From positions 1 to 26,966 of the forward strand of contig QGUX01000006.1 of NCBI GenBank assembly GCA_003242275.1: DNA of 26,966 nt. Direction: 5' to 3'. Made by a program: the position numbers and the translations under genes. Under the pieces are notes generated by a model. It searched no databases and had not been told where the DNA came from. It saw nothing but the letters and a program-made list of their open reading frames with translations. This stretch comes from Pseudomonadota bacterium (GTDB taxonomy: Bacteria; Pseudomonadota; Gammaproteobacteria; Steroidobacterales; Steroidobacteraceae). This document shows, piece after piece, positions 9,412 through 22,047 of the stretch (the stretch's first letter is position 1; each line of letters starts with the position of its first letter).

Positions 9412-10341
9412 ATGATCCAGGTGCAGAACCTGATCCGCCGTTATGGCGATTTCACGGCCGTGGACGACGTGAGTTTCCGCATCGGCCGTGGCGAGGTCGT
9501 GGGACTGCTCGGCCACAATGGCGCCGGCAAGACCTCGATCATGAAGATGCTCACCGGCTACCTCGAGCCGACCTCCGGCTCGGTGCGCATCGACGGTGAG
9601 GAGATGCGGCCGGAGGCCACCGCGCTCCGCGCCCGCATCGGCTACCTGCCGGAGAACTGCCCGGTGTGGCCGGAAATGACGGTGATCGACTACCTGTCCT
9701 TCCAGGCCGCGCTGCACGGCGTGCCCCCGGAGCGGCGCAACGCGGCGGTGGCCGCGGCGATCCGCCGCACGGCGCTGAAGGACAAGGCCACCGCGACCAT
9801 CCAGACGCTCTCGCGCGGCTACCGCCAGAGGGTGGGCGTGGCGCAGGCCATCCTGCACGATCCGCAGATCGTGATCCTCGACGAGCCGACCAACGGCCTC
9901 GATCCCACGCAGATCCGCCAGATGCGCGCGCTGATCCGCGAACTGGCCGCGAATGCCACCGTGATCGTCTCCACGCACGTGCTGCAGGAGGTGCAGGCGG
10001 TATGCGAGCGCGTGCTGATCCTGCGCGCCGGCCGGCTGGTGCTCGACTCGCGGCTGGACGAGATCGAGCGTTCCTCGGCGCTGGAGGTGGCCGTGGAAGG
10101 CGATGCAAGGACGGCGCTCTCGTCCGTGGAGGGCATCGGCACGGTGCACGACCTCCCGGCAGCGGGCAACCTGCGCCGCTACCGCATCGAGGGCGATCCG
10201 TCGCTGGCGCCGCGCATCGCCGCGGCGCTGGCGGCCGCCGGGCTGCCACTGCACGAGCTGCGCGGCGAGCGGCGCGACCTGGAGGCGGTGTTTGCCGCCG
10301 TGAACGAGGCACCGGCGGAAGCGGAGGCGGCCCATGCGTAA
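9412..10341 (+). CDS. ABC transporter ATP-binding protein, GldA type
   Basis: A strong GGAGGAG (9397-9403) precedes the ATG. The 309-residue protein is an ABC ATPase: Walker A GHNGAGKT (34-41), GYLPEN in the Q-loop region (77-82), signature LSRGYRQR (133-140), Walker B IVILDEP (153-159) and H-loop His189. The GYLPEN and SRGYRQRVGVAQA wording is typical of the GldA/NatA branch that serves ABC-2 permeases. About 90 extra C-terminal residues form an accessory domain. It should power the fused permease encoded next, whose ATG overlaps this gene by 8 bases. The Gld name comes from gliding motility in Bacteroidetes, but homologues are widespread in non-gliding bacteria, so gliding should not be inferred. 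Confidence 0.92.
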   Translation: MIQVQNLIRRYGDFTAVDDVSFRIGRGEVVGLLGHNGAGKTSIMKMLTGYLEPTSGSVRIDGEEMRPEATALRARIGYLPENCPVWPEMTVIDYLSFQAALHGVPPERRNAAVAAAIRRTALKDKATATIQTLSRGYRQRVGVAQAILHDPQIVILDEPTNGLDPTQIRQMRALIRELAANATVIVSTHVLQEVQAVCERVLILRAGRLVLDSRLDEIERSSALEVAVEGDARTALSSVEGIGTVHDLPAAGNLRRYRIEGDPSLAPRIAAALAAAGLPLHELRGERRDLEAVFAAVNEAPAEAEAAHA

Positions 10342-13168
10342 GGAGTGGCTGCGACAGACCATGGAAGTGGCGCGCAAGGAGTTCCGCGCGTACTTCACCA
10401 CGCCCGCCGCGTACCTGTTCCTGGGGGCGTTCCTGGCGGTGACGCTGTTCGTGTTCTTCTGGGTGGAGACCTTCTTCGCCCGCAACATTGCCGACGCACG
10501 GCCGCTGTTCGAGTGGCTGCCGCTGCTGCTGGTACTGCTGGTGGCGGCACTGACCATGCGAAGCTGGTCGGAGGAGCGCCGTGCCGGAACCATCGAGAGC
10601 CTGATGACATCGCCCACGCCGCCGTGGCAGCTCGTGCTGGGCAAGTTCGCCGCGGTGATGGCGCTGGTGGCGCTGGCCCTGCTGCTGACCCTGCCGCTGC
10701 CCGTCACGGCGGACATCCTGGGTCCGCTGGACTGGGGCCCGGTCGTGGGTGGCTACGTCGCCACGCTGTTCCTCGCCGCCGCCTACACGGCCATCGGCCT
10801 GTACATGAGCGGCCGCACCGACAACCCGGTGGTCTCGCTGATCCTGACCAGCGCCGCCTGCGGCGCGCTGTACTTCATCGGCTCGCCGCTGGTGACCACG
10901 CTGTTCGGCGATACGGTGGGCGCGTGGCTGGCCGGCATCGGCACCGGCTCGCGCTTCGAGTCGATCGCGCGCGGCGTCCTCGACCTGCGCGACATCTACT
11001 ACTACGTGTCGCTGGTTGGCGTGTTCCTGGCGCTGAACCTGTACACGCTCGAGCGCCTGCGCCGTGCCGGCAATCCCGCGGGCGACGCCCAGCGCCGCGC
11101 GGCGTGGATGCTGGGCCTCACGGTGGCCAACCTGCTGGTGGCCAACCTGTGGCTGGCGCAGGTCCCGCGGGCCCGGGTCGACCTGACGGCGGGCAATGTG
11201 TACTCGCTGTCCGAGGCGACGCGCAGCGAGATTGCCGCGCTGCCCGAACCGGTGACGCTGCGCGGCTACTTCTCCGCCCGCACCCATCCGCTGCTGGCGC
11301 CGCTGGTACCGCGGCTGAAGGACCTGCTGCGCGAATACGAAACCATCTCCGGCGGCCGGGTGCGCGTGGAGATCGTCGACCCCACCCGCAACTCCGAGGC
11401 CGAGGAGCAGGCCGCCTCGCGCTACGGCGTGCAGCCCGTGCCCTTCCAGACCGCCGACCGCTACGAGGCGGCGGTGGTCAGCTCGTACTTCGACGTGGTG
11501 GCCAGCTGCGGCGACGAGTTCGAGAAGCTGGGCTTCCGCGACCTGATCGAGGTCAAGGGCCGCGGCGAAGGTGAACTGGACGTGGTGCTGAAGGATCCGG
11601 AGTACGCCATCACGCGCGCCATCCGCCGTGCCGCGGCCGCCTTCCGCGCCGGTGGCACGACCTTCGCCTCGCTGGAAAAGCCGGTGACCTTCCATGGCTA
11701 CTTCTCCCCGGACGAGCGCCTCCCCGAGGTGCTGCGCAACCTGCGGCAGGACGTGGACGCCGTGCTCGGCGAGTGGCGCGGCAAGGCCGGCGACAAGCTC
11801 AAGGTGAGCATCGAGGATCCCGATGCCAACGGCGGCAGGTTGGGCCGCGAGCTGGGTGAACGCTACGGGCTGGTGCCGCAGTTCGCCAGCCTGACCGACC
11901 CCACGCCGTTCTGGTTCTACATGCTGCTGGAGGGCGACGGCGAGCTGGTGCAGGTTCCCCTGCCCGAGACGCTGGACCGCGAGGCGCTGAAGCGCTCGAT
12001 GGAGGCGGCGCTGCGCCGCTTCACGCCCGGCGCGCTGCGCACCGTGGCGCTGGTGAAGCCCTCGCCCGGCATGTCCATGGGCATGGGCGGCGGCCCCACC
12101 TACCAGCAGCTCGAGGCCGTGCTGGGCGAGAACCTGAAGATGAGCCCCACGGACCTCTCCGGCGGCGTGGTGCCCGCCGAGGCCGACGTGCTGCTCGTGC
12201 TGGCGCCGCGTGACCTGGACGAGAAGCAGCGCTTCGCCATCGACCAGTTCCTCATGCGCGGCGGCAGCGTGGTGCTGGCCACGGCGCCATTCGATGTGGA
12301 GGTCGCCGGCTCGATCAATGCCCAGAAGCAGAGCTCGGGGCTGGAGGACTGGCTGAAGCACTACGGCGTGACCGTGCAGGAGTCGATGGTGCTCGACCCG
12401 CAGAACACCGCGCTGGCCGTGCCGGTGGAGCGCTTCATCGGCGGCCTGATGTTCCGCGAGTTCCGGCTGATGCCGTATCCGCACTTCCCCGACATCCGCG
12501 AGGACGGCCTGGCCGGGGACAGCCCCGTGACCTCCTCGCTGGGACAGCTCACCTTCGCGTGGGCCTCGCCCATCGAGGTGGATGCGGAGCGCAACGCCGG
12601 CCGGAAGGTCACCACGCTGCTGCGCAGCTCGCGGCAGAGCTGGGTCTCGGATTCCACCAATGTCCTGCCCGACTACGGCCGCTATCCGGACACCGGCTTC
12701 GAGCCGCGCGGCGATCGCGGGCCGCGCACATTGGCCGTGTCGCTGGAGGGCCGCTTCGACTCGTTCTATGCCGGCAAGCCCTCCCCGCTGGGTGATGACG
12801 GCGCCAGCCGCGGTGTGCTGTCGCAGTCGCCGGACACGGCCAAGCTGGTCGTGATCGGCAGCAACGGTTTCGGCTCGGACGCGGCCATCAACCTGGTCTC
12901 CCAGTCGCTCAACGTGTTCTACACCAAGCCGCTGGACTTCCTGCAGAACACCATCGACTGGGCGCTGGAGGACCCGGGCCTGATGACGCTGCGCGGCCGC
13001 ACCCAGCTCGCGCGCACGCTCGATCCGCTGGACGACCGCGAGCGGCGCTTCTGGGAGATCGGCAATTACGCAGCGGCCGTATTCGGCCTGGTGATCGTGT
13101 GGCTGTGGCGGCGCCGCGTGCGTTCCGCCGACCAGCTGCGCTATGCGCGTGTGCTGGGGGAGGTTTGA
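10334..13168 (+). CDS. ABC-2 permease fused to GldG-type extracytoplasmic protein
   Basis: The 944-residue protein joins two components that are separate in Flavobacterium (GldF and GldG). Residues 1-240 are an ABC-2 permease with about six hydrophobic segments (for example 26-45, 61-75, 104-122, 137-157, 166-187, 221-237). A further transmembrane helix at 257-275 begins the GldG part, which opens with RVDLTAGNVYSLSEATRSEI and ends in one more helix (about 919-933) and a short basic tail. The large region between should face the periplasm. It contains two similar units starting PVTLRGYFS (306) and PVTFHGYFS (450), which look like an internal duplication. Start chosen at the ATG that overlaps the ATPase gene. 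The exported substrate is unknown. Confidence 0.9.
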   Translation: MRKEWLRQTMEVARKEFRAYFTTPAAYLFLGAFLAVTLFVFFWVETFFARNIADARPLFEWLPLLLVLLVAALTMRSWSEERRAGTIESLMTSPTPPWQLVLGKFAAVMALVALALLLTLPLPVTADILGPLDWGPVVGGYVATLFLAAAYTAIGLYMSGRTDNPVVSLILTSAACGALYFIGSPLVTTLFGDTVGAWLAGIGTGSRFESIARGVLDLRDIYYYVSLVGVFLALNLYTLERLRRAGNPAGDAQRRAAWMLGLTVANLLVANLWLAQVPRARVDLTAGNVYSLSEATRSEIAALPEPVTLRGYFSARTHPLLAPLVPRLKDLLREYETISGGRVRVEIVDPTRNSEAEEQAASRYGVQPVPFQTADRYEAAVVSSYFDVVASCGDEFEKLGFRDLIEVKGRGEGELDVVLKDPEYAITRAIRRAAAAFRAGGTTFASLEKPVTFHGYFSPDERLPEVLRNLRQDVDAVLGEWRGKAGDKLKVSIEDPDANGGRLGRELGERYGLVPQFASLTDPTPFWFYMLLEGDGELVQVPLPETLDREALKRSMEAALRRFTPGALRTVALVKPSPGMSMGMGGGPTYQQLEAVLGENLKMSPTDLSGGVVPAEADVLLVLAPRDLDEKQRFAIDQFLMRGGSVVLATAPFDVEVAGSINAQKQSSGLEDWLKHYGVTVQESMVLDPQNTALAVPVERFIGGLMFREFRLMPYPHFPDIREDGLAGDSPVTSSLGQLTFAWASPIEVDAERNAGRKVTTLLRSSRQSWVSDSTNVLPDYGRYPDTGFEPRGDRGPRTLAVSLEGRFDSFYAGKPSPLGDDGASRGVLSQSPDTAKLVVIGSNGFGSDAAINLVSQSLNVFYTKPLDFLQNTIDWALEDPGLMTLRGRTQLARTLDPLDDRERRFWEIGNYAAAVFGLVIVWLWRRRVRSADQLRYARVLGEV

Positions 13169-13171
13169 GAG

Positions 13172-14164
13172 ATGAAGGACAGGACCAGGCTGCTGGCGGG
13201 AATCCTCGCCGCGCAGATCGTTCTCGTGGCCGTGTTGTGGCTGCTGAATCGCGCACCCTCGGCGGCGGGCCAGCCGCTGCTGGAGGTCGAAGTGGCCCAG
13301 GTGGACGAGGTGATCGTCGAGGGGCCGAAGGACGCCAGGGTGATGCTGCGCAGGTCCGGCGAGGACTGGCTGGTGGATGGCGCATTCCCCGCGCAGTCCT
13401 CGAAGGTGAAGACCCTGCTCGAGGACCTGGCCAAGGTGGTGGCCGGTGCGCCCGTGGCGACCAGCAATGCCGCGGCCGCGCGCTTCCGCGTCAGCGACGA
13501 GGACTTCGAGCGGCGCATCACCCTGCAGGGTTCCGGCAGGCAACTCGCCCGGCTCTACCTCGGCAGCTCGCCGGGTTTCCGGCGGGTGCACGCGCGGCGC
13601 GGCGAGGACAACGAAGTGTACGAGATCGCGTTCTCCGCCTTCGACGTGCCGGACTCGGCGGGAGGCTGGCAGGACCGTGACCTGCTGAAGATGCCGCTGG
13701 AGGAGATCGAGGCGATCACACGCGGCGAGCTGGAGATGGTGCGCCACGCGGCGAAGGCCGCAATGGCCGGGCCGGGCGAGGGCGGTGATCCTTCCTCCGG
13801 CGCAGCCGAAGCCGCGCCCGAGTGGACCGCCACGCGCAAGGGATCACCGGTCAGGCTCAAGTCCGGTGCCGCCAGCCACCTGGCGAGCCTGCTGGCCAAC
13901 CTGACCTTCGAAGCCGCGCTCGTGGGTGACGCCGCCAGCGAGGCCGCGGAAGGCGGCAAGGTGGCGCTGGAACTGGAGGTTCGCCGGCGCGGCGTGGCCC
14001 AGCCGATCACCTACCGCTTCGAGCGCAAGGGCGAGGAAGGCCCCTTCACCCTTCATGTATCGACGCGCCCGGAGCCGCTGCGGGTGGCGGCGTACGTGGT
14101 GCAGCCGCTGATCGACGCGGCCGGGGATACGGCGCTGCTGGAGGATTCCAGAAGTTCAAGGTGA
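13172..14164 (+). CDS. DUF4340 domain protein of the Gld-type ABC operon
   Basis: The gene starts three bases after the permease stop, so it belongs to the same operon. The 330-residue product has an N-terminal transmembrane helix (about 7-25, LLAGILAAQIVLVAVLWLL) and then repeated beta-rich units: VDEVIVEGPKDARVMLRRSGEDWLVDGAFPA fragments, a SKVKTLLEDLAKVV helix, and ARLYLGSSPGFRRVHARRGEDNEVYEI-like strands. This matches DUF4340, which regularly follows GldG genes in proteobacteria. It is probably anchored in the inner membrane with a periplasmic domain that works with the fused permease. No catalytic residues are evident. A strong hairpin six bases beyond the stop marks the end of the operon. 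Confidence 0.87.
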   Translation: MKDRTRLLAGILAAQIVLVAVLWLLNRAPSAAGQPLLEVEVAQVDEVIVEGPKDARVMLRRSGEDWLVDGAFPAQSSKVKTLLEDLAKVVAGAPVATSNAAAARFRVSDEDFERRITLQGSGRQLARLYLGSSPGFRRVHARRGEDNEVYEIAFSAFDVPDSAGGWQDRDLLKMPLEEIEAITRGELEMVRHAAKAAMAGPGEGGDPSSGAAEAAPEWTATRKGSPVRLKSGAASHLASLLANLTFEAALVGDAASEAAEGGKVALELEVRRRGVAQPITYRFERKGEEGPFTLHVSTRPEPLRVAAYVVQPLIDAAGDTALLEDSRSSR

Positions 14165-14391: not shown

Positions 14392-16569
14392 ATGGCCAGC
14401 AGTTCCACGCCGAGATCACCAGGGCTGGATCCGAGGGGAAAGCTGAAGGAAGGCGTCCTCCGGCGCTTCGTGTTCCAGACCTTCGGCCGCTCACGCCACA
14501 CGCAGGACAGTCCGGTGATGCCGGACGTCTTCCTCCGCTACATCCGCGCCGCCGAGAAGCAGGCGGGCGGCGGCGGAACCCATGGCGACCTGGTCGACCT
14601 GCTGCTGACGCCGTGGTCGGGCGTGAGGCCGGGGCAGGTCGCGCATGACCTGAACGAGCGGCTAAGGGCGGACAGCATCACGCTGCAGAAGAAGGCGCGC
14701 ATTGCCCTCAGCGGCAGCCGGGTGGTCGTCGGCGCCAACCTCGATACGCTGGTGCGGCACGTCGTGCAGATGACCGGCTGGTGGGTGCGCCTCTTCTGGA
14801 GTGGCATCAGGAAGCGGGCCGGCAGGCAGTTCGACAGCCTCGAAGCAGGGCAGCTCGACAGCCTGGCGCAGGCGGAGTTCGACGCGTCCATCGAATGCAT
14901 CCGCAGGAGCATCGACCAGTACGGGGCGGTCCGCGGCCCGGGGATCAACTTCGAGCTGTCGCGGTTCGGCGCACTGGTGGGGTTCATCGCGCTGCTGCGG
15001 GAAGCCCGCACGCCGGGCCGGAAGGCCGAACTGGCCACCCTGGCCTACAAGCTCGGCGCTCCGTCGCCGGCGGACGAGGAGGAACTCGAGCTGCTGTCGG
15101 AAGCGCCGCGCGACCTCGACGAGACCAGCCTTCGGCTCACCCCGAAGGAGGCGAAGAACCTCCACGCGATGTACGAGCGGGCGCGGGAGCTGCTGCGCCC
15201 GCAGGGCTACCGGTTCCAGAACGGAATCTTCCTGGTCAGCCTCAACCGCCGCGCCGCGCAGTCCGTGTTCGAATCGCGGGCGACGGTGAAGGCCGACGCC
15301 GCACAGAACGTCTTCAGGATCGACACCACCGGCATCGTCTTCGCCGTCATCGACGGCGGCATCGATGCCATGCACCCCGGGTTCGTCGACAGGTCCGACG
15401 AGCGCGTGCAGGCCTTCCGCGAAGAGCATCCGGGCAAACGCCTTCCGGAAGAGCTCCTGCTCGACGCATCGCGGGTCAGGCAGACCTACGACTTCACGAT
15501 CCTGCGCGACATCGTGGCCAATGCCATGTTCCTGGAGAAGCCGGCGAGCATCCCCAGGACCGTGCCGAACCGCGAGACCATCATCCAGCTGGCACGCAAT
15601 CCGGCCAACCGGAAGATCCTCGGCGCCCTCGCCGACCGCGTCACCAGTGCGAGCGACCTCGACTGGGAACTGGTCAGTCCCCTGATCAGGGTTCCGCACC
15701 GGCTGCCTGCGGGCAATTTGGCCGGGCGTTCCCGTGCCATCGCCGGGACCGGCGCCACGTCCTGCTACGTGCGTCCGGGCACCGACCATGGCACGCACGT
15801 CGCCGGCATCCTGGCAGGCTACCGCGAGGACGATCCCGACACGGGCGGCCGCAACCTGATCGGCATGTGCCCGGAACTCTCCCTTTACGACCTGCGCGTC
15901 TTCGACCAGAAGGGACAGGGCGATGAATTCGCCATCCTGTGCGCGATCGAATTCGTCGGCTGGCTCAACCGCGATCGCAACACGCCGGTGATCCATGGCG
16001 TCAACCTCTCCCTGGCGCTCGCCCACGACGTGGATGCCTTCGCCTGCGGCCAGACGCCGATCTGCGAGGCCTGCAATCACCTGGTCGGTGCCGGTACCGT
16101 GGTGGTGGCCGCCGCCGGCAACACGGGGTTCGACGGCGGTCCCAGCATGGAGAGGCGCAGCCTGGGCAATGGCTACCGCGCCATCAGCATCACCGATCCC
16201 GGCAATGCCGAGAGCGTCATCACGGTCGGGTCGACCCACCGCCGCGACCCGCACCTGTACGGCGTCAGCTACTTCTCGGCCCGCGGGCCGACCGGCGACG
16301 GACGGCGGAAACCGGACCTGCTCGCGCCCGGCGAGAAGATCACTTCGTTCACGCCCAACGGCGGCAGCCGTCGCATGGACGGCACGTCGATGGCCGCACC
16401 GCATGTCTCCGGCGCGGCCGCCCTGCTGATGGCGCGCTATCCCGAACTCATCGGCCGACCCGGACGCATCAAGGAAATCCTGATGAGCACGGCCACCAAC
16501 CTGAAGCGGGAGCCGAACTTCCAGGGGGCCGGGCTGCTGGACACCCTGCGCGCGCTGCAGGCCGTCTGA
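14392..16569 (+). CDS. S8 (subtilisin-like) serine peptidase with a long unknown N-terminal region
   Basis: The 725-residue protein carries the full subtilase triad: D321 in FAVIDGGIDAMHPGF, H466 in TDHGTHVAGI, and S666 in DGTSMAAPHVSG, with oxyanion N577 in AAAGNTG. No signal peptide or hydrophobic segment of export type is seen, so it should act in the cytoplasm. Residues 1-310 do not look like an I9 propeptide; I see mostly helical, charged sequence with no recognised domain. Between D321 and H466 there are about 145 residues, far more than the roughly 30-50 of plain subtilisins, including a helical insert (about 335-445). It is the first gene of a three-gene operon with an MBL hydrolase and a DUF2235 lipase. 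Arg codon AGG is noticeably commoner here than in the preceding ABC genes. The target protein is unknown. Confidence 0.93.
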   Translation: MASSSTPRSPGLDPRGKLKEGVLRRFVFQTFGRSRHTQDSPVMPDVFLRYIRAAEKQAGGGGTHGDLVDLLLTPWSGVRPGQVAHDLNERLRADSITLQKKARIALSGSRVVVGANLDTLVRHVVQMTGWWVRLFWSGIRKRAGRQFDSLEAGQLDSLAQAEFDASIECIRRSIDQYGAVRGPGINFELSRFGALVGFIALLREARTPGRKAELATLAYKLGAPSPADEEELELLSEAPRDLDETSLRLTPKEAKNLHAMYERARELLRPQGYRFQNGIFLVSLNRRAAQSVFESRATVKADAAQNVFRIDTTGIVFAVIDGGIDAMHPGFVDRSDERVQAFREEHPGKRLPEELLLDASRVRQTYDFTILRDIVANAMFLEKPASIPRTVPNRETIIQLARNPANRKILGALADRVTSASDLDWELVSPLIRVPHRLPAGNLAGRSRAIAGTGATSCYVRPGTDHGTHVAGILAGYREDDPDTGGRNLIGMCPELSLYDLRVFDQKGQGDEFAILCAIEFVGWLNRDRNTPVIHGVNLSLALAHDVDAFACGQTPICEACNHLVGAGTVVVAAAGNTGFDGGPSMERRSLGNGYRAISITDPGNAESVITVGSTHRRDPHLYGVSYFSARGPTGDGRRKPDLLAPGEKITSFTPNGGSRRMDGTSMAAPHVSGAAALLMARYPELIGRPGRIKEILMSTATNLKREPNFQGAGLLDTLRALQAV

Positions 16570-16601
16570 AACGTGAATCGGGGGGGGACAGGGAGGTCCG
16601 C

Positions 16602-17837
16602 ATGGTCACGCTGGAGGCATTGAATGCACTCGCCGGGGATTGCCTGATCCTGCGCTACAAGGGGACGGGCGGCAAGGAAGCCCTCTGGCTGATCGACGGC
16701 GGCCCGAGGACCGACACCGAAAAGGGCATCACGGTCTGGAGCCAGGTGCTGCTGCCGCGGTTGAAGCAGATCGCCCGCGCACTGGGAGTCAGCGGGCCGC
16801 TGCCCATCGCGCTCGGGATGGTCAGCCACGTCGACGACGACCACATCAACGGCATCCAGAAGGTCACGACGGCGGTGCTCAATGCGACGCCAGGGAACCC
16901 CGCGCCGGTGAAGTTCGAGCGCTTCTGGTTCAACTCCTTCGACAAGCTGGTCGGACCCGCGCCGCAGGGCCTCGGGGCGGCAGCCGCCGCGGAAGTGGCC
17001 TCCTTGCAGTCCCTGGGACAGGAGCTTGCATCCACCCTCGGCGCCCGGGCGGGAATCGACGGACCGGAAGTGGAGCACTCCGGGCTGCTCATGCAGAGCA
17101 TCGCCCAGGGCATCTCCCTCGCCAGCGACCTCGCAGCCCTGAGGCTCGGCGGCAATCCCCCGTTCAACGACCTGGTCATGGCCAGGCCGGGCCAGCCGAA
17201 GGTCAACATCCAGGGCGCCAAGGTGACCGTGCTCGGCCCCCGGAAGAGCCGCATCGAGGCCCTCCGCAAGGACTGGCAGGCCGCGCTGGAGAAGCCGACG
17301 AAGAAGGCGCGCCAGGCGGCGCTGCAGGAGCTGTTCCTGCCGAGCAGGAAGCTCGACCGGTCGGTTCCCAACCTGTCCTCCATCGTGGTGCTGGTGGAAA
17401 CCGGCGGCAGGTCGCTCCTGCTGACGGGCGATGCCCACGGGAGCGACATCGTCAAGGCCTGGGACGAGCTCGGCCTGCCCAGGCCGGCGAAGGTGGACCT
17501 GCTCAAGATGCCCCACCACGGAAGCATCCGCAACGTCACCGAGGAGTTCATGAAGTTCTTCGAGGCGACACACTATGTGTTCTCCGCCGATGGCAGGCAC
17601 GACAACCCGGATGCGCCGACGATCGAGGCACTGGTGAAGCTGCACGGGGACCGCCCGATCAAGCTCCACTTCACCAACGGGGACATCGAGTGGGCGAAGC
17701 CGTACAAGATCGAGAAGAACGGCAGGAAGGTGAAGAACCTCGCCGATCTCCTGCAGGAGCTGAAGAAGGCCTACGGCGGTCCCTGGACCACGAGCATGCG
17801 CGCGAACGACCAGCTCTCCGTGATCGTGGAACTGTAG
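16602..17837 (+). CDS. Metallo-beta-lactamase-fold hydrolase, ComEC type
   Basis: The ATG at 16602 has GGGAGG five bases upstream and lies 32 bp after the subtilase stop. The 411-residue product shows the MBL metal motifs in the variant found in ComEC-like enzymes: SHVDDDH (75-81, HxDxDH in place of HxHxDH), LLLTGDAHG (272-280, D277) and MPHHGS (303-308). An N-terminal strand LIDGG (30-34) completes the fold. Between residues 95 and 255 is a helical insert including a Lys/Arg-rich stretch (about 213-250). No signal peptide or membrane segment is visible, unlike true ComEC, so it is a soluble cytoplasmic enzyme. ComEC-type MBL domains are nucleases or phosphodiesterases; that a nucleic acid or nucleotide is the substrate here is inference. 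Confidence 0.9.
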   Translation: MVTLEALNALAGDCLILRYKGTGGKEALWLIDGGPRTDTEKGITVWSQVLLPRLKQIARALGVSGPLPIALGMVSHVDDDHINGIQKVTTAVLNATPGNPAPVKFERFWFNSFDKLVGPAPQGLGAAAAAEVASLQSLGQELASTLGARAGIDGPEVEHSGLLMQSIAQGISLASDLAALRLGGNPPFNDLVMARPGQPKVNIQGAKVTVLGPRKSRIEALRKDWQAALEKPTKKARQAALQELFLPSRKLDRSVPNLSSIVVLVETGGRSLLLTGDAHGSDIVKAWDELGLPRPAKVDLLKMPHHGSIRNVTEEFMKFFEATHYVFSADGRHDNPDAPTIEALVKLHGDRPIKLHFTNGDIEWAKPYKIEKNGRKVKNLADLLQELKKAYGGPWTTSMRANDQLSVIVEL

Positions 17838-17847
17838 GAACCCCTCC

Positions 17848-18963
17848 ATGCCCAGGAACATCGTCGTCTGCTGCGACGGCACGGCCAACCAGTTCGCCGT
17901 GGACCGCACCAATGTAGTCAAGCTCCTCTATACCCTCGAGCACGACCCGGATACCCAGGTCATCTACTACCACCCGGGCATCGGGACGATGGAGGCCGTC
18001 GGCGCGGTAACGAAGATCGGCCGCCGGGTGACCAAGCTGCTGGGCAAGGCCATCGGGTACGGACTCGAGACCGACATCCGCGACGCCTACGTCTTCCTGA
18101 TGCACAACTTCCAGCCGTGCGACCGCGTGTACATGTTCGGCTTCAGCCGCGGCGCCTACACCGTCCGTGCCGTGGCGTCGCTGCTGCACATGTACGGACT
18201 GATCCAGCCCGGCAACGAGCCACTGGTGCCCTATGCGATCCGCATGATGATGGCGGCCAGGAAGCTGCAGGACAGGAGCGCCGCAGGCGGGAACGGCAAG
18301 GCGAACGAGTACTTCCAGCTCGCGGACGACTTCAAGGACCACTTCAGCATCAGGAACTGCAAACCCCATTTCGTCGGCATCTGGGACACGGTGAGCTCGG
18401 TGGGGTGGATCGAGAACCCGTTGCGGTTGCCCTGGACCGCCAACGCACCCAACATCCAGGTCGGCCGACATGCCATCGCCATCGACGAGCGGCGGGCATT
18501 CTTCCGCACCAACCTGTGGCGTCCGGGAAAGAACGGCGGACCGAAGGACATCAAGCAGGTGTGGTTCCCCGGCGTGCACTGCGACGTGGGCGGAGGGTAC
18601 CCCGAGGATGAAAGCGGCCTGTCCAAGCTGGCGCTGGAATGGATGCTGCGTGAGGCGACGGCGCATGGCCTGCGGGTGAACCCGGCACGGCTCGGGCACG
18701 TGCTGGGACGGACGGGCAGAAACGCGAAACCCGATCCCGATGGCAGGATGCACGAATCGCTGAAGGGTGCATGGCACCTGGCGGAGTTCGTGCCCAAGCG
18801 CCACTACGACTGGCAGAAGAAGAAGGAGCGGAGGCGGATGAACCTGTACCGGCGACGAACCATCCCGGACGGGGCGCTCATCCACCGATCCGTCTTCCTC
18901 CGCGAAGGCGGGCGGTACGCGAAGCGCCTGAAGCTGCCGCCGAACTACGTCATCGAGGACTGA
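17848..18963 (+). CDS. DUF2235 / Tle1-like alpha/beta hydrolase (putative phospholipase)
   Basis: Starting 10 bases after the MBL gene, this 371-residue protein is a DUF2235 hydrolase, the family that includes the type VI lipase effector Tle1. Landmarks: VVCCDGTANQ (6-15), nucleophile elbow GFSRGAY (98-104, S100), GIWDTVSSVG (177-186, D180) and PGVHCDVGGGY (241-251, H244), which give a Ser-Asp-His triad. Known members hydrolyse phospholipids. Here there is no VgrG, Hcp, PAAR or recognisable immunity gene alongside, no signal peptide and no adaptor domain, so delivery by type VI secretion is not supported. As the last gene of an operon with an intracellular protease and an MBL hydrolase, it may act on the cell's own membrane; that is inference. 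Confidence 0.92.
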   Translation: MPRNIVVCCDGTANQFAVDRTNVVKLLYTLEHDPDTQVIYYHPGIGTMEAVGAVTKIGRRVTKLLGKAIGYGLETDIRDAYVFLMHNFQPCDRVYMFGFSRGAYTVRAVASLLHMYGLIQPGNEPLVPYAIRMMMAARKLQDRSAAGGNGKANEYFQLADDFKDHFSIRNCKPHFVGIWDTVSSVGWIENPLRLPWTANAPNIQVGRHAIAIDERRAFFRTNLWRPGKNGGPKDIKQVWFPGVHCDVGGGYPEDESGLSKLALEWMLREATAHGLRVNPARLGHVLGRTGRNAKPDPDGRMHESLKGAWHLAEFVPKRHYDWQKKKERRRMNLYRRRTIPDGALIHRSVFLREGGRYAKRLKLPPNYVIED

Positions 18964-20295: not shown

Positions 20296-22047
20296 ATGAC
20301 ACTGTCGATCAACACGAACGTCGCCTCGCTGAATGCGCAGCGGAGCCTCGCGCGTACCGGCAATGAACTGTCGCGGGCACTGCAGCGCCTGTCCTCCGGC
20401 CTGCGCATCAACGCGGCGAGTGACGATGCCGCGGGGCTGGCCATCAGCGAGCGCATGACCACGCAGATCCGCGGCATGTCGGTGGCGATCCGCAATGCCA
20501 ATGACGGCATTTCGCTGCTGCAGACGGCCGAGGGCGCGCTGGCCGAACTCACCGAGAACATCCAGCGCATCCGCGTGCTGGCCGTGCAGGCGGCCAACGG
20601 CACCAACAGCGACGCCGACCGCCAGGCCATCGCGCAGGAGGTCAGGCAGCGACTGGAGGAGATCGACCGCATCGGCCGCCAGACCTCCTTCAACGGCCAG
20701 CGCATCTTCGCGCAGGACGGAACCTCCATCGGCGGCGATCCCGCGCAGCGGGCCGTGGCCGACGGCCTGCGCATGGGCTGGCTGGCGAGCGCCGAGCGGC
20801 TGATCGAGCAGTACTACGGCATCAAGGGCGATGGCGCCGGGCTGCAGATCGACATCACCACCGATTCGGACGGGCCCGGCGGCTACGCCGCCTTCGTCGC
20901 CAGCACGACGGGCGGCGACCCGAACGGCCGCGGCACCAACCTGAGACTGGTCGTCGACATGGCGGACTTCACGCCGCCGAACCTGCCCGACGGCGGCACG
21001 GCGCCCTTCTACAACGATCGCGTGATCGCGCACGAGATGGTGCACGCGGTCATGGCCCGCGCCACCAACTGGGCCTCCCTGGTGACCACCTCCCTGTGGT
21101 TCGTGGAGGGCGCGGCGGAATTCATCCACGGCGCGGACGAGCGCGTGGCCGCCGACATCGCCGCCGCCGCCGGCGCCACCGAGGATGACCGGATCGCGGC
21201 CGTGGTGAACGACATCACGAGCTGGGCCAGCACCTCGGCTGACTACTCCGCCGCCTACATCGGCACGCGCTACCTGCACGACAAGCTCAAGAGCGAGGGC
21301 TTCGACGGCGGAATCAAGGACTTCATGACGTACCTGAATGGTCCGGATGCCCCCACCATGGACGAGGCGCTGGAACACTTCTTCGGCAGCGGGTACGACC
21401 AGGCCGCGTTCTTCGCCGAGCTTCAGTCTGATTCGGGCAACGGACTGTCCAACGGCGTGATGTTCGTGAAGAACAGGATGAACCTCACCAACGCGGACAC
21501 CGGCGCCATCGGCGGCCTGGATGCCGACGGCGGTGCCGTCCGGAGCGCGAAGGACGCCGTGCTGGACCTCGACGGCCTGTATGGTGACGACGTGCTCGCG
21601 GGCTTCAAGGAGTCCTGGGAGAAAGTCGCCCCGGGCACGTCCACCACCCGCACTGCCAGCCTGCAGATCGGCGCCAACGTGGGACAGACGCTGGACGTGG
21701 AGGTCGGCGCGGTGGACCTCAACGCGCTGGGCCTTGGCGAAGTGGACGTGACCAGCGACTACGCGGCCATGCGCTCCATCGTCCACCTGGACGAAGCGCT
21801 CTCGTACATCAGCGACCTGCGGGCCACCCTCGGCGCGCAGCTGGCCCGCATCGAGAGCTCGGTGTCGGTGACGCAGGCCGTGGCCGAGAACACGCAGGCC
21901 GCGCGCTCGCGCATCCTCGATGCGGACTACGCCGTCGAGACGGCCGCGCTCACCCGCGCCAGCGTGCTGCGCGAGGCGGGCACCGCGATGGTGGCACAGG
22001 CCAACGCCCTCCCCAGCCGGGTGTTGTCGCTGCTGTCCAGGATCTGA
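20296..22047 (+). CDS. Flagellinolysin: flagellin with an inserted HEXXH zinc metallopeptidase domain
   Basis: The 583-residue protein begins and ends as a normal flagellin. The N-terminal D0/D1 (1-140) has [35 protein letters not shown] and TSFNGQRIF; the C-terminal D1/D0 (about 455-583) has [11 protein letters not shown] and [20 protein letters not shown]. The usual variable domain is replaced by about 310 residues with a gluzincin peptidase: HEMVH (246-250) and, 21 residues later, WFVEGAAEF (268-276), giving zinc ligands H246, H250 and E271 with E247 as the base, spaced as in collagenases. This architecture is the described flagellinolysin family, whose filaments are proteolytically active outside the cell. 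No other flagellar genes are nearby, so it must use a basal body encoded elsewhere. AAGGGA sits upstream of the ATG. Confidence 0.95.

Follow-up and report, generated by a model that had tools for sequence, protein, structure and literature searches.

Introduction

Protease-activated pro-nucleases with trypsin and caspase partners were reported in 2025 (Tuck et al., 2025; PMC12799240). The main text of that report describes gated pro-nucleases of the metallo-β-lactamase (MBL) fold that act as protease-activated DNases in Hachiman, are cleaved in AVAST and are activated by a caspase in Canu. The words subtilisin, subtilase, lipase and phospholipase have 0 occurrences in that main text, and its supplement may list subtilisin partners. 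Here, a three-gene operon encoding a subtilisin-like protease, an MBL-fold hydrolase and a DUF2235 lipase is described. It lies in a stretch of 26,966 nucleotides (the window) on contig QGUX01000006.1 of a Steroidobacteraceae bacterium (assembly GCA_003242275.1). In the best-supported account, the operon is a module whose nuclease is activated by the protease and whose lipase is interchangeable; it would extend a known kind of system. No printed account of this gene set was found in the literature, as judged by titles and the first parts of abstracts. The genes and their catalytic residues are as follows.

14392..16569, + strand: S8 (subtilisin-like) serine protease, 725 amino acids (Pfam PF00082, 7.4e-40)
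15352..15354, + strand: protease catalytic D321, by residue position check
15787..15789, + strand: protease catalytic H466, by residue position check
16387..16389, + strand: protease catalytic S666, by residue position check
16602..17837, + strand: MBL-fold hydrolase, 411 amino acids, a predicted gated pro-nuclease
16827..16844, + strand: HxDxDH metal motif of the MBL protein, residues 76-81, invariant in 44 aligned rows
17430..17432, + strand: MBL D277, by residue position check
17514..17519, + strand: MBL H305/H306 (HHGS), by residue position check
17848..18963, + strand: DUF2235 (Tle1-like) lipase, 371 amino acids (PF09994, 2.7e-81)

The three-gene observation, made in a first-pass annotation of the window, was confirmed as real. 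Gene order, strand and gaps are correct by open reading frame (ORF) coordinates: 32 bp separate protease and MBL genes (16570-16601) and 10 bp separate MBL and lipase genes (17838-17847). The MBL gene starts with an ATG at 16602, with AGGGAGG upstream at 16590-16596. The active sites described as complete in all three enzymes are complete, with every residue at its position. N577 accompanies D321, H466 and S666 in the protease, and S100, D180 and H244 of the lipase stand where expected. The catalytic residues are invariant in the protease (43/43 aligned rows) and in the MBL protein (44/44), these rows being a chosen subset of the relatives found; those of the lipase are kept in 120/120 homologues listed (the best 120 of 7512 passing). 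No signal peptide was indicated by hydropathy, the sole check applied to all three proteins. The highest 19-residue mean over the first 50 windows was -0.02 for the protease, 1.06 for the MBL protein and 0.53 for the lipase, and the stretch at 1.06 corresponds to core strands in the MBL structure model.

Comparison with known systems

Canu resembles the window operon in having a standalone protease gene upstream of an MBL gene, whose product is a gated nuclease in Canu and a predicted one in the window, and its description in the main text of PMC12799240 includes no NTPase. The absence of an NTPase had been taken to set the operon apart from known systems; no STAND NTPase was found among the window proteins scanned, but the Canu text offers a precedent. 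A Bradyrhizobium plasmid locus with a caspase-MBL pair (L110) carries the same type of DUF2235 protein as the window. The window differs from Canu in that its protease belongs to PF00082 rather than to the caspase family PF00656, in that no CanB-like gene was seen and in the addition of a lipase.

By sequence, the MBL protein is related to Avs1a of AVAST and to LmuA of Lamassu. Its residues 1-352 align with annotated Avs1a at 26% identity with both loop regions in register, and it matches the NCBIfam Avs1a model at 2e-36 (125.7 bits, far under the model cut-off of 420). LmuA is its best PADLOC model (2.1e-46), and the Pfam Lactamase_B match (4.2e-4, 20.7 bits) falls under the cut-off of 22.7 bits. 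The annotated Avs1 locus of type I AVAST has its MBL gene upstream of a serine protease gene and Avs1c, whereas the window has an S8 protease upstream, and the window proteins scanned gave no match to STAND or Avs1. LmuB, expected beside a Lamassu nuclease-protease pair, was not matched in the 13 window proteins scanned with PADLOC. Membership of AVAST and of Lamassu was rejected (no STAND, no SMC, a different protease).

PDC-M48B, a PADLOC candidate system, has models that match the MBL protein at 1e-9 and differs in protease family. We take its name to denote an M48 metalloprotease with an MBL protein, in which case PADLOC may already include a pairing of this kind; we know of no lipase in it. 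IetAS also uses an S8 protease as a defence component, and the window protease matches IetS weakly (2e-5, PADLOC). The genes adjoining it encode the MBL protein and a DUF4340 protein, and no AAA ATPase (IetA) lies beside it. In the VMAP ternary systems, the gene for a peptidase, a caspase, regularly occurs together with one for an alpha/beta-hydrolase (PMC7159879). The core of these systems consists of MoxR and vWA NTPase components and is missing from the window trio. A likeness of function is found in fungal HET-Q1/HET-Q2, where cleavage by a subtilisin-like protease is the likely trigger of a membrane-killing effector; that effector is a gasdermin, and no MBL protein takes part (PMC12881547).

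A conserved pair with a changing third gene

Homologues of the three proteins were listed (MBL, 120 of 1302 passing; protease, 115; lipase, 120 of 7512) from candidate pools of up to about 8000. Contigs, matched on size, were compared between lists against a control in which contig sizes were shifted by up to 40 bases. The MBL and protease lists share 40 contig sizes (control mean 0.9, maximum 4), MBL and DUF2235 share 10 (1.1, maximum 4) and protease and DUF2235 share 6 (0.8, maximum 3), with 3 sizes common to all three lists. Because sharing exceeds the shifted control, the association of the trio is more than chance.

Loci were collected from genome contigs, one viral contig, plasmid records and the genus of G002 (a Bradyrhizobium). 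The genome contigs gave 74 loci, of which L001-L014 were kept; L015-L074, with a partial MBL match only (E 2e-8 to 9e-4), were set aside together as probable ComEC-type loci by that match rather than by individual checks. An MBL match was present in 77 plasmid records; 8 of these were opened on that basis, one being an annotated AVAST locus that stands outside the 50 loci examined (window included). A pair was defined by at least 250 matched residues in both protease and MBL protein, and 38/50 loci contain one. The 12 dropped loci are L011 (contig end), L013, L075, L082, L110-L115 (fetched for DUF2235), L134 and L135. An S8 gene is present in 37/41 loci fetched by MBL similarity, the exceptions being L011 (a contig-end fragment), L013, L075 and L134. 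The protease gene lies upstream of the MBL gene on the same strand in 38/38 pairs and within 60 bp of the first matched MBL codon in 36/38. Pairwise distances of the two proteins are correlated, with r 0.87 over all 38 pairs and r 0.68 over the 27 with more than 25% MBL difference (0/2000 shuffles as high). The protease and the MBL protein are a conserved, co-inherited pair.

The occurrence of this pair is patchy. With the centre genome counted in each sample, the protease was found in 2/385 genomes sampled from the class of G002, the MBL protein in 21/265 genomes of its genus, and further samples gave 1/141 in the class of G001 and 1/21 around G004. A scan of viral contigs returned one contig with the MBL alignment (L075) and no match with the protease alignment, and a phage collection gave one partial MBL match. 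The relative on the IMG/VR contig (L075:3214-5535) is 56% identical to the window MBL protein and has SxDxDS for HxDxDH, GN for GD and NH for HH. Its gene lies downstream of a MoxR-type AAA gene, and the protein is extended at the N-terminus by a long stretch that weakly matches designed PPR proteins. Judged by its residues, it is apparently catalytically dead and might serve as a decoy or regulator.

The third gene changes from lineage to lineage. Labelled by hidden Markov models (HMMs), Pfam and plasmid annotation, it encodes DUF2235 in 4 pairs (window, L002, L079, L133), patatin in 20, FRG in 2 and TIR in 1, with 8 pairs in the class of other or none and 3 unlabelled at contig ends or in fragments (L001, L003, L010). 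Lipases of two unrelated folds thus accompany 24/38 pairs, or 13/27 non-redundant ones. Pfam or annotation supplied 7 patatin labels and HMMs the remainder; among the irregular cases, L009 is divergently oriented, a single gene intervenes in L080, and the match is partial in L120 and L124. L006 carries an additional DUF900 alpha/beta-hydrolase upstream. On the MBL tree, which has several long branches and an uncertain deep part, the third-gene labels need 9 changes in total and DUF2235 alone needs 3. L002 is the sole one of the window's nearest MBL relatives that shows the full trio.

In a tree of 20 DUF2235 proteins, the window's clade comprises 7 rows (support 96/97), and 6/7 adjoin an MBL gene paired with a protease. 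Three protease types are represented: S8 in the window, L002 and L133, a caspase in L110, and a zincin-motif protein in L112 and L113. The seventh member, L111, lies near Hachiman, outside its operon. The surprising part is that the protease family changes around one lipase clade. L110 and the window share 62% identity in the lipase and 28% in the MBL protein. Outside the clade are the DUF2235 proteins of L079, which forms a long branch, and of L115. A homologue is found in 234/265 genomes of the genus of G002 (E 1e-60), mostly at 40-45% identity among the matches listed, and the DUF2235 family alone is therefore not a defence marker. Only two of those listed matches exceed 60% identity, and both adjoin an S8-MBL pair. 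In the order of G002, a match to the window's DUF2235 protein at E 1e-90 occurred in the centre genome alone (1/397).

On the Bradyrhizobium plasmid (L110:7046-14384), genes for DUF2235, a caspase, an unknown protein and an MBL protein are consecutive, and an S8 protease and AAA ATPase pair that resembles IetAS by annotation adjoins them on the opposite strand. Rhizobium (L112:3375-8170) and Agrobacterium (L113:3940-8086) plasmids encode a zincin-motif protein, an MBL protein and a DUF2235 lipase consecutively. The MBL protein there carries HxHxDH and HHGS, and its partner carries HExxH and a second HE-AD motif. The zincin-type label is given by motif alone, as Pfam and PADLOC named no family and PDB matches, thermolysin included, were non-significant; the two loci may represent the triad in a metalloprotease form. 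Two S8-MBL pairs share a single Methylorubrum plasmid: one follows cyclase-domain, E2-domain and TIR genes (L078:2564-9239), and the other, which is more remote, adjoins SIR2 and has a DUF2235 gene upstream of it (L115:7001-13645).

Several relatives lie close to defence genes. The 91 neighbouring proteins at 13 of the 38 pairs (chromosomal pairs, with core and lipase genes excluded) gave matches to 67 PADLOC families at 1e-15; 10 of these neighbours were scanned individually, and 4 matched and 6 did not. The matches are DpdF at L002, pAgo and ThsA at L133 and, with less specificity, a kinase-type family at L006. A rough control of 91 out of 126 candidate proteins from 10 probable ComEC-type loci, all actinobacterial and partly interrelated, gave 0/91. 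Plasmid loci adjoin SIR2, insertion sequence (IS) elements, TIR or FRG genes, one zincin-type locus adjoins CBASS genes, and others lie among metabolic genes.

Proposed mechanism

On balance, the trio is probably an NTPase-free three-enzyme anti-phage module that acts by abortive infection, a function proposed from comparison. The first suggestion of a defence or self-harm module is supported by the conservation of the pair, by the repeated presence of lipases of two folds beside it and by the defence genes close to several relatives. The window's own surroundings do not form a defence island. We infer phage sensing, zymogen control, MBL proteolysis, nuclease activity and membrane attack as its steps. 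The S8 protease would be held inactive in the cytoplasm, probably by a propeptide-like domain, and a helical insert in it may be the sensor. A phage cue would free the protease, which would then cut one or both insertions near the MBL active site and turn the MBL protein into a DNase. The DUF2235 lipase would be a second, swappable effector that damages the cell membrane, perhaps also after release by the protease. The regions with putative control functions are as follows.

14587..15258, + strand: possible propeptide-like domain, protease residues 66-289, in two parts (about 66-116 and 279-289) on either side of a helical insert (about 117-268, 14740-15195)
16962..17096, + strand: first putative gating insertion, MBL residues 121-165, low predicted local distance difference test (pLDDT) score, variable and gapped
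17292..17369, + strand: second putative gating insertion, MBL residues 231-256, low pLDDT

The AlphaFold2 model of the protease has a pLDDT of 81, and its best PDB matches are subtilisins. Aligned with VIA-align, pro-subtilisins cover 332-345 residues from model residue 64-66, and mature subtilisins cover about 255-261 residues from residue 297-298. The division into propeptide and insert is a reading of secondary structure in the model. Pfam I9 was not matched by the protease at E 0.1, and Pfam names nothing in its N-terminus, giving just DUF4404 below its cut-off. The alignments suggest that the protease is perhaps under zymogen control.

The MBL model has a confident MBL fold with two low-confidence insertions, which Pfam did not name. 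The pLDDT values in 10-residue blocks over residues 121-170 are 78, 64, 51, 57 and 78, with residues 148-153 under 50, and those over residues 241-260 are 69 and 68. The first insertion lines up with the corresponding stretch of annotated Avs1a and the second with a longer stretch. By likeness to gated pro-nucleases, the loops are predicted to be gates over a nuclease active site. The MBL protein had been cast together with the protease as a sensor or activator. This assignment has been revised: because of its likeness to the pro-nucleases described in the main text of PMC12799240, the MBL protein is more likely a protease substrate and DNase effector.

Several observations weigh against the proposed module. 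The full trio occurs in only 4/38 pairs, 8 pairs have no lipase, FRG or TIR gene alongside (among them L116, with a weak GDSL-lipase match under the threshold, and L083, with a DUF1353 gene), and the DUF2235 label is not significantly clustered on the MBL tree (51/500 shuffles as low). The genus of G002 supplies 14/20 patatin loci, most of which apparently occupy a single chromosomal site, so the independent patatin cases are fewer than counted. Structural matches of the MBL protein to ComEC (9ic4) and to the phosphorylcholine esterase Pce are tied and do not single out a nuclease, which lowers confidence. The second insertion is kept in close relatives, and its residues 241-250 are 64% gapped in 8 remote ones. 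In the MBL protein, nothing equivalent to the isoleucine cut sites conserved in trypsin-type nucleases was found, and the consensus there is LPGV. The case for zymogen control comes from structural alignment alone, and a phage assay of a subtilisin-MBL pair was not found in the literature. The window neighbours (ABC transport, flagellin, PQQ enzyme and similar by Pfam) are housekeeping-like, and 10 of them scanned with PADLOC gave just partial methyltransferase and ABC-ATPase matches, which places the window outside a defence island.

A wider version of the proposal, a general triad of protease, gated MBL nuclease and lipase for bacterial self-destruction, is possible and is put forward tentatively. 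The unrelated families of subtilisin, caspase and zincin would each serve as activator with the same dedicated DUF2235 clade, one proteolytic switch would fire both DNA degradation and membrane lysis, and the subtilisin would be a zymogen with a phage-sensing helical domain inserted in its propeptide.

Alternative explanations

Because the full trio is found in so few pairs, a two-gene protease-MBL defence module should be considered, in which DUF2235 is a separate defence gene or a chance neighbour acting alone. The pairs that lack such a partner are in keeping with it, as are L003, which has no lipase downstream of the MBL gene, and L001, whose sequence ends soon after. The DUF2235 gene of L133 lies 683 bp downstream, and other DUF2235 genes are found near CBASS genes or without a recognised partner. 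The short gaps of 10 bp (window), 31 bp (L002) and 7 bp (L079) between MBL and DUF2235 genes argue for a single unit, as do the association of the window's DUF2235 clade with protease-MBL pairs across three protease types and the sharing of 10 and 6 contig sizes against control means near 1. This explanation is considered unlikely for the trio, and the view of the trio as one system stands in part: protease and MBL protein go together, and DUF2235 is one of several third genes.

The operon might instead serve intracellular protein and lipid turnover, as a housekeeping or stress system unrelated to defence. The abundance of DUF2235 homologues in the genus of G002, the neighbours of the window, the many patatin loci of that genus flanked by ORFs of equal size, as would be expected at a single site, and the equal closeness of the MBL fold to phosphorylcholine esterase and ComEC would all suit such a role. 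A turnover function fits poorly with the patchiness of the pair, the plasmid loci beside IS elements, SIR2, TIR and FRG genes, the changing third gene and the sequence kinship of the MBL protein with Avs1a and LmuA, and it is judged less probable still.

A degraded AVAST or Lamassu system that has lost its STAND or SMC component would explain the kinship with Avs1a and LmuA. It is very improbable given that the protease is subtilisin-type, separate and upstream in 38/38 pairs, rather than a trypsin domain fused to a downstream core protein, and that the active sites are all intact. Bacterial competition by a type VI secretion system (T6SS) effector is scarcely credible: PF09994 is the Tle1-like catalytic domain and the papers listed on DUF2235 with phage mainly concern T6SS, but no T6SS family (VgrG, PAAR, immunity) was found by Pfam in 15 window frames, and neither VgrG nor PAAR was named in 9/9 annotated DUF2235 regions read (of 142 plasmid records with a match), contrary to the association with VgrG and immunity genes that had been raised as a test of the single-system idea.

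Other features of the window

Just upstream of the trio, window positions 9412-14164 (+ strand) encode an ABC ATPase, a 944-amino-acid protein that by eye is like a fused permease, and the DUF4340 protein. We take this to be a gliding-type (Gld-like) ABC operon. Downstream, positions 20296-22047 (+ strand) encode a flagellin that has flagellin domains at both its N- and its C-terminus. Between them, an insert contains HEMVH and has a weak, sub-threshold Peptidase_M9 match; the protein is presumably a flagellinolysin-like proteolytic flagellin.

Conclusion

The system is small and seemingly free of NTPases. If the proposed module is correct, a subtilisin partner and a swappable phospholipase would extend proteolytic activation of MBL nucleases to another protease family, and the zincin loci would add one more. 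DNA-cutting and membrane-cutting effectors would then be placed under one switch. A defence role would also be suggested for a clade of DUF2235, a family treated mainly as T6SS effectors in the papers listed.

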